64,000 nt of DNA from Haloprofundus halobius (GTDB lineage Archaea; Halobacteriota; Halobacteria; Halobacteriales; Haloferacaceae). Position numbers and translations under genes: made by a program. Location: positions 3,100,001-3,164,000 of the forward strand of contig NZ_CP083666.1 in the NCBI RefSeq assembly GCF_020097835.1, written 5' to 3'. Below, piece after piece: positions 23,382-27,346 of the stretch (position 1 is its first letter; every line of letters begins with the position of its first letter). The notes below the pieces were generated by a model. It had not been told where the DNA came from. It was given only the letters and a program-made list of their open reading frames with translations, and made no database searches.

Positions 23382-23528
23382 ATGTCCGAGCACAATCCAG
23401 TCGCCGAATTCCTGGCCGACCACCCCCGAATGAGCGGCGCGCTGTTCATGATCTGCCTGCTGTTGTCGCAAGCCGGTGCCGTGGCCGCCGGTGCCGTAGC
23501 TGCCGGTAACGGCACGACGGTCGGGTAG
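23382..23528 (+). CDS. 48-residue membrane peptide, DUF7503-like
   Basis: The peptide reads as a charged/polar N-terminus 'SEHNPVAEFLADHPRM', one hydrophobic helix 'GALFMICLLLSQAGAVAAG' and a short polar end. I recall this layout, with the 'FLADHPRM' signature, as the small haloarchaeal DUF7503 family of unknown function. An AT-rich element (tgatagtaatc) is centred about 26 bp before the ATG. The gene faces the CHAT protease gene tail-to-tail with only 4 bp between stops. A longer in-frame reading from 23169 covers another gene's end and is rejected. Confidence 0.7.
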   Translation: MSEHNPVAEFLADHPRMSGALFMICLLLSQAGAVAAGAVAAGNGTTVG

Positions 23529-23532
23529 GCCG

Positions 23533-25605
23533 CTACGGGAGTTCGTCCGGAGAGACGTCCGTCGACCACCGGAACGTCCCGTCGACGACCACCGGCACCC
23601 GTTCGAGCGCGAGCAAGTTGACCACCTCCGGTAGCGAGAGTCGCAGCGGCGGCAGGTCGCCGCCCACGAGGAAGTACCGGCTGACGCTCGGTGCGTGCGG
23701 GGTGTAACAGGCTCCGATCGCCGGCCCGAGCGCCGGATACGTCGTTATCTGGACCTCGTACTCCTCGTCCTCGGGTTCTCGACGTATCGTGAGCAGGTTC
23801 GGCGTTCCGTTCTCCGACTGCGCGATCTGTACGGCTCCGTCACCGACGACGGTGTAGCGGCCCTCGACCGGGCGGCGACGCCCGGCGATGGCGAGCGCCG
23901 AACGGAGCGAGTACCCCGCGTTGAGAACGCCCGCGACGAGTCGCCCGACCGCGGTCGCGCTCGGGTCGTTCACGGCACCGTGCGTCACGATACCGCCCAC
24001 GCTCCCCTTGTCGACCAGGGTCGTCCCCTGGTCGTACGACCGGCAGCCGTTCAGCAGGAACGTGTCGACGCCCACCGCGTCCAGTTCGGCCGCGTCGAGC
24101 GCTCCGTCCCGACAGGCGAACCCGGCCCGCTCCACGTGTCCGATGTAGTGGAGGAAGTTGAGGTCCGTCGCGAGCAGCTCCCGGAGCTCGTCGCGCGAGA
24201 GGTCCCGGTAGACGGCCACCTCGAACGGGAGCTCCTCGCGGTCGCCGTACAGCTCGCCGTCTTCGACCTCGGCGAGCATCCGTTGGTCGTTACAGACGAT
24301 CGCGATGTCGATCGGGCCGCCCGTCGACTCGTGCGCCAACCTGTTGCGGACGCCCGTCAGACGCAGGTCGTTGGCGTTCACCGCCCGCCCGTCGCCGACC
24401 CACGCGCGCTCGAGCGCGTCGGTTTCCGAAACCCGGACGTACCGCGGCGCTTCGGGCGACCCGCCTGACGTCGCCGCGGAGTCGGTGCTCCCGACCAACT
24501 CCTCGTACCCCGGCGGCGGACTCGGCCGGGCGGTGGCGGCTCCCGGTCGTTCGATGCCGATGATCGAGAGCGCGTTCGCCGCGTACGAAAGCAGTTCAGC
24601 CGACTCCGGCGACGGGGCGAGATGGGTCGAGAGATACCACGTCGGCACCAGCTCCAGAACCGTCTTGGCGGGAACGTCGAGATATCTCCTGACGCGCTCG
24701 GATATCGGGGTGTCGTAGAGCTCGCGGTGGGGGATATCCGCCCGCTTGTCGAGTAGCCGTCGCTCGTGGAGCTCGAACTTGTAGCGTCCCTCCGTCCGGA
24801 CGACGCAGTCGAGCAGGAACACCTGTCGAAGCACGTCGGTCACGGCGCCTTCGAGCCCCTCCGGCCCGTCCAGGGTCCGGACGACCTCGTCGTCGGCGAG
24901 GAGGCGAGCCTCCGAACCCGGCGTCACGCGAGCGCCGAGATAGTGGGCCAACGTCGCGACGGCGTAGACGGCCGCCCGGTTGCGGGGGACCTCGATTCGC
25001 AGGCCGGTTTCGGGCGGTGTCACCGCGTCCGGGACGTCGAGCGCGTCGCCCAGTTCGATCGCGGGCGGGTGTCCGCGGAGCGAGGGGAACGACCGCTCCG
25101 GGCTCGTCGTTTTGAGCGCCGACCCGAACGTCGAGACGGCCGCCATCAGATCCTCGGGGACGGCCGTCGTGGTGACGGTCGCCGCCGGACGCTCGTGGTA
25201 GGAGCGGGCGCCGACCACTATCGGCGCGTCGCCCTCGAACGCGATCCGCATCTCGGTGCTCGAGGAGGTCACCGTCACCGCTCCCGAAACCCGAAGGAAA
25301 ATTTTGATCGGCGCGGCGATCTCGAGTTCGTACTCGCCGGCGGGGAGCTCTCGACGGGTGAAGTCGAGGCATTCGGCGACCATCTCTCCGTTCACGTCGT
25401 GGACGTAGACGCCGACGACGTACGGCAGTTGCAGCTCCTCGATCCGACAGGAGACGGCGGCGTCGACCGGCTCCCTGAATCGGTCGACAGCGCCGCTCTC
25501 GAGGCCGACGGCCCGGGGGGTCGACAGCGGAAACCGACGACCTTCGATGCGGTCGACGACGGTGATTCCCGGCCCCTCCTCGTTGGCTAGAAACCCGACC
25601 GTCAT
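23533..25605 (-). CDS. CHAT-domain caspase-like protease
   Basis: The 690-residue protein ends in a CHAT (caspase HetF-associated with TPRs) protease domain, roughly residues 430-620. The catalytic dyad is visible as His490 (in 'LHYIGHVERAGF') and Cys521 (in 'FLLNGCRSYDQG'), followed by 'GSVGGIVTHGAVNDPSAT'. The N-terminal 420 residues are unfamiliar, with beta-rich and helical parts and no TPR repeats. The start ATG 25605 overlaps the upstream gene's stop by 4 bp (ATGA), so the two are coupled. CHAT proteases elsewhere act in CRISPR-linked and gasdermin-linked defence. No such partner is seen here. The target is unknown. Confidence 0.85.
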   Translation of the reverse strand: MTVGFLANEEGPGITVVDRIEGRRFPLSTPRAVGLESGAVDRFREPVDAAVSCRIEELQLPYVVGVYVHDVNGEMVAECLDFTRRELPAGEYELEIAAPIKIFLRVSGAVTVTSSSTEMRIAFEGDAPIVVGARSYHERPAATVTTTAVPEDLMAAVSTFGSALKTTSPERSFPSLRGHPPAIELGDALDVPDAVTPPETGLRIEVPRNRAAVYAVATLAHYLGARVTPGSEARLLADDEVVRTLDGPEGLEGAVTDVLRQVFLLDCVVRTEGRYKFELHERRLLDKRADIPHRELYDTPISERVRRYLDVPAKTVLELVPTWYLSTHLAPSPESAELLSYAANALSIIGIERPGAATARPSPPPGYEELVGSTDSAATSGGSPEAPRYVRVSETDALERAWVGDGRAVNANDLRLTGVRNRLAHESTGGPIDIAIVCNDQRMLAEVEDGELYGDREELPFEVAVYRDLSRDELRELLATDLNFLHYIGHVERAGFACRDGALDAAELDAVGVDTFLLNGCRSYDQGTTLVDKGSVGGIVTHGAVNDPSATAVGRLVAGVLNAGYSLRSALAIAGRRRPVEGRYTVVGDGAVQIAQSENGTPNLLTIRREPEDEEYEVQITTYPALGPAIGACYTPHAPSVSRYFLVGGDLPPLRLSLPEVVNLLALERVPVVVDGTFRWSTDVSPDELP

Positions 25606-26924: not shown

Positions 26925-26933
26925 ACTTTATTG
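26925..26933 (+). promoter_or_regulatory. TATA box of the DUF7344-like gene
   Basis: actttattg is centred 28 bp before ATG 26957. The 122-bp stretch 26835-26956 is the divergent promoter region shared with the HalOD1/CHAT operon and would be the place for the DNA-binding protein to act. Confidence 0.5.
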
Positions 26934-26956
26934 TCGTCGAGCATCTACGTGTTGAC

Positions 26957-27346
26957 ATGACCGACGACGAACTGCCGGACGACTGGGCCGCTCCGCCGAC
27001 CGCGGACGAGGGAACACGTCGCCGACTCGATGCGCTGCTCTCGTTGCTCGCCGACCGCCGCAGGCGGGATCTGCTGTATCACCTCGAAACGGTGGAGTTG
27101 ACCGATGTCGGGACGCTGGCCCCGAAAGTGGCGTCGGTGTCCGAGGGGGCGTCGATAGACGACATCAGCCCCGACGTCCTCCAGCAGGTCCAGATAGACC
27201 TCGTACACGTCCAACTCCCGAAACTCGCCGACATCGGCGCAATCGAGTACGATCGGCGTAGCGAGATGATCCGCTGTCGGACGCTTCCGCCCATGCTCGG
27301 GCAGTTGGTCGACTGCTGCCGCGACATCGAGGCCGCCGAGACGTGA
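26957..27346 (+). CDS. winged-helix protein, DUF7344-like
   Basis: The 129-residue acidic protein contains '[21 protein letters not shown]', a helix pair typical of archaeal winged helix-turn-helix regulators, then '[28 protein letters not shown]' in parts, the recognition helix and wing. This is the pattern I know as DUF7344, abundant in haloarchaea next to HalOD1/KaiC-like genes. It is divergent from the HalOD1-CHAT operon and probably regulates it. ATG 26957 is chosen over the frame's upstream start because of the TATA box at 26925. Confidence 0.78.

Follow-up and report, generated by a model that had tools for sequence, protein, structure and literature searches.

Organization of the locus

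The window, by which we mean the whole 64,000-nucleotide stretch of Haloprofundus halobius DNA analysed here (contig NZ_CP083666.1, positions 3,100,001 to 3,164,000 of the forward strand), carries the following genes and features, given in window coordinates.

23312-23381, plus strand: AT-rich region 5' of the peptide gene, probably its own promoter (in the window, from sequence only)
23382-23528, plus strand: gene of a DUF7503 membrane peptide, 48 aa (Pfam PF24335, E 3e-17, 62.3 bits against a cut-off of 27)
23533-25605, minus strand: gene of the predicted CHAT-type cysteine protease P0005, 690 aa, caspase fold, clan CD (AlphaFold and Foldseek)
24136-24138, minus strand: codon of the predicted catalytic His490, immediately after predicted strand 482-488 (homologue alignment and model)
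24043-24045, minus strand: codon of the predicted catalytic Cys521, immediately after predicted strand 513-519 (homologue alignment and model)
25602-26834, minus strand: gene of P0002, 410 aa, with two HalOD1 copies (Pfam, E 1.8e-20) and DUF7504 (Pfam, E 1.2e-37)
26835-26956, no strand: putative divergent promoter, separating the winged-helix gene from the HalOD1-DUF7504/CHAT operon (sequence)
26957-27346, plus strand: divergent DUF7344 winged-helix gene, ATG at 26957 (Pfam PF24035, E 9.9e-17)

Only 4 bp separate the stop of the peptide gene from that of the CHAT gene, and at its other end the CHAT gene begins with an ATG that shares 4 bp with the TGA of the HalOD1/DUF7504 gene (ATGA), an arrangement that suggests translational coupling of DUF7504 and CHAT. 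The flanking genes are of a housekeeping kind (PIN protein, aminotransferase, F420 ligase, phosphoesterase, NUDIX/eIF2B-like, 2-hydroxyacid dehydrogenase, GTPase, 5-FTHF cyclo-ligase, DUF389); a PIN-domain gene (VapC-type, 18772-19164) lies about 4.2 kb off the module. All four genes had been recognized, and correctly placed, in a first-pass annotation of the window. The His490 and Cys521 residues and the 4-bp overlap can be read directly in the sequence, and Pfam bears out the two HalOD1 stretches joined to DUF7504 and the divergent winged-helix gene. The convergent 48-residue membrane peptide, mentioned last and left without a family name, belongs to DUF7503.

A predicted protease of divergent CHAT fold

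CHAT proteases are familiar chiefly as CRISPR effectors, with the separases as relatives. P0005 itself had no match in Pfam, NCBIfam or PADLOC. The CHAT profile (PF12770) matched 12 of 49 P0005 relatives weakly (E <= 0.1, best 0.0019) and gave no match when the window's own genome was searched. Given that the PF12770 cut-off is missed, this is a divergent CHAT subfamily, placed by its fold and catalytic residues and not by this profile. The AlphaFold model of P0005, built from 49 sequences, reached a pLDDT of 87.4 and a pTM of 0.88. With this model, the best Foldseek match was a SAVED-CHAT filament (PDB 8TL0, E 9.4e-7), followed by separase (2.7e-5), gingipain R (2.4e-4), Craspase (1e-3) and, more weakly, caspase-3. 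The catalytic His and Cys lie at the ends of adjacent core strands in the model, as expected for CHAT, while the N-terminal region is beta-rich and had no library match. A sequence search of the PDB with the CHAT and DUF7504 profiles gave nothing meaningful. Judging from the modelled structure, P0005 is a divergent CHAT-fold protein and a predicted cysteine protease.

Relatives of P0005 are encoded by 551 stretches of genome contigs, from which the best 80 of 551 were retained. Among 60 related genomes, 46 encode at least one relative, and the window's own genome encodes four. The catalytic pair, on whose conservation the protease reading of the first-pass annotation hinged, is intact in 110 of 121 homologues. 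Nine of the 11 homologues that have lost it form one clade (L128, L130, L132, L135, L136, L138-L141), in which both His and Cys are replaced (PP, PV, GG and similar) and no peptide is present; these are possible pseudo-proteases with another role. Many of the clade II CHATs (L033, L079-L090, L112-L126) occupy a syntenic chromosomal spot near the glyA (SHMT), folD, TbsP and YcaO genes, and their peptide is longer-tailed, or none was detected. Outside the haloarchaea, four genomes, all from a single further family of the phylum, encode CHAT relatives (L258-L261), the N-terminal region being at least partly matched. No peptide was detected at these four loci, and His and Cys are intact in at least one of them (L260). 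The absence of the peptide beside the non-haloarchaeal CHATs makes it look like a haloarchaeal addition.

A link to nearby defence genes, raised by the first-pass annotation, found no backing in the genomic context. PADLOC gave no match for the four window proteins and a single one among 78 neighbours of CHAT loci, which amounts to no enrichment. Apart from one weak Csa3-type match, neither a Cas effector nor SAVED was seen among the same 78 neighbours. A search of phages and viral contigs for the CHAT protein returned no homologue, yet homologues are carried by 25 haloarchaeal plasmids. On the strength of the 78 neighbours and of the phage and viral searches a defence-island reading was set aside, although, with carriage on plasmids, a role in defence may still apply.

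CHAT and DUF7503 as a genomic pair

The near-obligate partner of CHAT is the convergent peptide; these two genes, and not CHAT and HalOD1, make up the core unit. Of the 102 DUF7503 matches checked, 101 are convergent (tail-to-tail) to a CHAT gene: 63 of 63 in 60 genomes, with gaps of 3-279 bp and one of 1017 bp, and 38 of 39 in 30 further genomes. In the one exception (L204, genome G321) peptide and CHAT share a strand, with the peptide gene following 1.4 kb downstream. When 393 genomes of the phylum were searched, DUF7503 was found in the window's order only. Seen from the side of the protease, the peptide accompanies 71 of 80 CHATs at the named loci, where two peptides first classed as "other" belong to a second, tandem CHAT, and it is present at 76 of a set of 85 CHAT loci. 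Tandem arrangements take two forms: at L182 and L249 there are tandem CHAT genes, each with a convergent peptide of its own, and at G143:C1:486534-486796 two DUF7503 peptides stand in tandem at a single CHAT locus.

Relaxed profiles, built from divergent DUF7503 members and applied to 121 CHAT loci, placed the peptide beside 86 of the 110 catalytically intact CHATs, beside none of the 11 dead ones and nowhere else in the loci. The Fisher value for this association (3e-7) is inflated by shared ancestry: since nine of the 11 dead CHATs fall in one clade, it overstates independence and represents few independent events. Distances between CHATs and between their peptides are correlated (Mantel r 0.67, 0 of 2000 permutations), in part through shared ancestry, and for 22 of 33 peptides the one that goes with the nearest CHAT of another genome is more similar than that of any paralogue in the same genome. 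Taken together, there is strong evidence that CHAT and DUF7503 are a functional pair. That the peptide essentially never occurs away from CHAT suggests an uncharacterised protease-peptide signalling pair.

HalOD1, DUF7504 and the winged-helix gene

The first-pass annotation had set the emphasis elsewhere, proposing a CHAT protease coupled to a HalOD1/KaiC-like protein, with the winged-helix protein controlling expression. At 44 of the 85 loci a DUF7504 gene of some kind precedes CHAT. The HalOD1-DUF7504 fusion is present in only 16 of the 85, all members of a single, well-supported CHAT clade to which the window belongs; the DUF7344 gene is present in 12, all but one within that clade. All four genes come together in 11 of 85 loci, the window counted, and again in one CHAT clade (Natronosalvus, Haladaptatus, Natrialba, Natronorubrum, Natrarchaeobius, Natronococcus). 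On plasmids, the nearest relative is that of Natronosalvus (67% identity), which has the four genes in unchanged order, with a DUF7344 orthologue 48% identical and at a position matching the window's. The proposed co-occurrence thus recurs in several genera and stays restricted to one clade: the gene set is a real, recurrent, yet clade-specific form of a wider module. Because CHAT is found mostly without HalOD1, their coupling, offered as a general system, has to be seen as a clade-specific elaboration. As a general partner the winged-helix gene was rejected, in view of the 12 of 85 loci and of 51 DUF7344 matches in the window's own genome.

The label "KaiC-like" is right as to the fold, since DUF7504 is of the KaiC/RecA type and KaiC heads its Foldseek matches (E 9e-8), and fails at the sequence motif: Walker A (GxxxxGK[ST]) is missing from all 36 DUF7504 relatives taken from CHAT loci. 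Its absence makes an ATP-driven switch unlikely, and a KaiC switch of this kind was rejected.

Anatomy of the peptide

DUF7503 members are single-pass peptides of 40-65 aa with the consensus Y/F-L-A-E/D-H/N-P-R/K-M-x-G-V/A-L-F-T-x-x-L-L-L-S/T-Q-A-G-x-A/V-A-A, followed by a short tail. In the window the order is a short N-terminus of cytosolic type, an HPR motif, one TM helix, LLSQAGAVAA and a short tail that ends in GTTVG. A basic residue adjoins the helix, which is why the topology is probably N-in, C-out. Residues of the TM face (G, F, T, S/T-Q-A-G) are conserved beyond hydrophobicity. A terminal -GP is found in 76 of 86 peptides; in the window's clade the tails are mostly GGTVA-, GGSIY- or GGGTW-like instead. 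The possibility that -GP results from the peptide gene overlapping CHAT codons was rejected, as the ending is kept with the two stops anywhere from -19 to about 1000 bp apart. The peptide is a real gene under purifying selection: two same-genus sets gave a dN/dS of about 0.17, and a clade II set one of 0.37. Its upstream regions average 68% A+T at -60 to -20, against 41% for other predicted genes, and the gene probably has an AT-rich promoter region of its own.

A proposed mechanism and its alternatives

Our favoured mechanism, held with about even confidence, is that the peptide is a membrane-anchored substrate of CHAT. A cytosolic CHAT would act on, or only jointly with, its dedicated single-pass DUF7503 peptide, which would span the membrane, its short N-terminus facing the cytosol and its tail the exterior. 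Once activated, CHAT would cut the part that faces the cytosol, close to the conserved Y/F-L-A-E/D-H/N-P-R/K motif, and thereby free a signal or change the function of the peptide in the membrane. The co-transcribed DUF7504 pseudo-ATPase is the likely cytosolic input that gates CHAT; in the window's clade this pseudo-ATPase is fused to HalOD1 domains, and the divergent DUF7344 protein is a putative clade-specific transcriptional regulator. The (H/N)P(R/K) motif sits at the membrane edge, where the protease may not reach it, and might do no more than cap the helix or set its topology. CHAT must also have other substrates, since 24 of the 110 intact CHATs and the four non-haloarchaeal relatives lack a detected peptide.

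A regulatory partner or anchor of CHAT would leave a genomic pattern identical to that of a substrate. It is possible, if tentative, that the peptide stays uncut and acts as a membrane anchor or receptor, recruiting or activating CHAT in response to a signal perceived by its extracellular tail or its TM helix, with CHAT cleaving other proteins. The conserved TM-face residues and the terminal -GP suggest specific contacts, and such a role fits the co-variation of peptide and CHAT and the constant convergent position of the gene, although the separate AT-rich promoter region suits a stoichiometric substrate at least equally. Small size, a single hydrophobic helix, a promoter region of its own and convergent genes that share their stops or are separated by 0-100 bp would also suit a small membrane toxin (TisB/Hok-like), curbed by CHAT proteolysis or by antisense CHAT read-through mRNA in a toxin-antitoxin or programmed-death system. 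We consider this unlikely, as the loci lie among housekeeping genes (those of clade II by glyA, folD and tbsP) with one PADLOC match in 78 neighbours, a setting that is not selfish or defence-like, and typical small toxins are less conserved along the TM face than DUF7503.

The AxA-like AGxVAA end, followed by a short tail that varies by clade (GGTVA, GGSIY, GGGTW versus ...GP), is what a secreted signalling precursor might show, with the helix as signal sequence, the variable tail of 7-20 residues as a released pheromone, and CHAT and DUF7504 acting in processing or response. However, the residue-level conservation of the helix (LFTxxLLLSQAG) is unlike that of cleavable signal peptides and an exported tail would be out of reach of a cytosolic CHAT, which makes this reading very unlikely. 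The model of the first-pass annotation, in which the HalOD1 protein senses a signal and releases CHAT, the winged helix controls expression and the peptide is incidental, can draw on the 4-bp-overlap operon and on the four-gene set of 11 loci in one clade; we find it highly improbable against the 16 and 12 of 85 loci with HalOD1 and winged helix, the 76 of 85 with the peptide and the complete CHAT linkage of DUF7503 in the first genome set. A bolder reading is rather unlikely in its entirety: caspase-fold protease and micropeptide would form an obligate pair for signalling or cell fate, the peptide would be a cleaved messenger or pheromone, and the pair would explain the orphan haloarchaeal caspase-like activity.

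Relation to known systems

A CHAT subfamily that escapes the CHAT profile is thus present in most sampled haloarchaeal genomes, nearly always with an uncharacterised micropeptide. A literature search, beyond whose reach most subscription journals lay, found no mention of DUF7503, DUF7504 or DUF7344. The pair would offer a tractable archaeal system of protease signalling, Haloferax genetics being good.

Bacterial gasdermins are activated by neighbouring proteases, and there too a protease gene adjoins the gene of a membrane-active protein; unlike gasdermins, the haloarchaeal partner, 40-65 aa with one helix, is far too small. The SAVED-CHAT of type III CRISPR, the best structural match to the haloarchaeal CHAT, differs in that no SAVED domain was identified in P0005 and the scanned neighbours show no CRISPR context beyond the Csa3-type match. 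The substrate of the type III-E TPR-CHAT protein Csx29, the protein Csx30, is encoded next to it (PMC10028731), which provides a precedent for a CHAT lying beside the gene of its substrate. By analogy with this Craspase, the haloarchaeal locus would join a CHAT-fold His/Cys dyad protease to a candidate dedicated partner, with proteolysis as the proposed output. Unlike Craspase, it is without Cas7-11, CRISPR genes, identified TPR or RNA sensing; a very small convergent membrane peptide takes the place of candidate partner, and the likely regulator is a KaiC-fold pseudo-ATPase.

Two comparisons lead to Haloferax volcanii. Its disk-determining factor DdfA has a HalOD1 domain (PMC10869688; NCBIfam NF053557), as does P0002, which scores 68.2 bits with NF053557, just below the 70-bit cut-off; unlike DdfA, P0002 combines two HalOD1 copies with DUF7504 and is encoded beside a CHAT gene. 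H. volcanii also shows a strong caspase-like activity (LEVDase, sensitive to zVAD-FMK), for which no gene homologue was reported (PMC3615174). That activity was measured on Asp-P1 substrates, which may differ from those of the haloarchaeal CHAT, a candidate only. A control search found the DUF7503 gene in H. volcanii, and in other Haloferax species CHAT, DUF7504 and the peptide occur together. We hypothesize that the CHAT family accounts for this orphan activity, for which it provides a concrete gene candidate.
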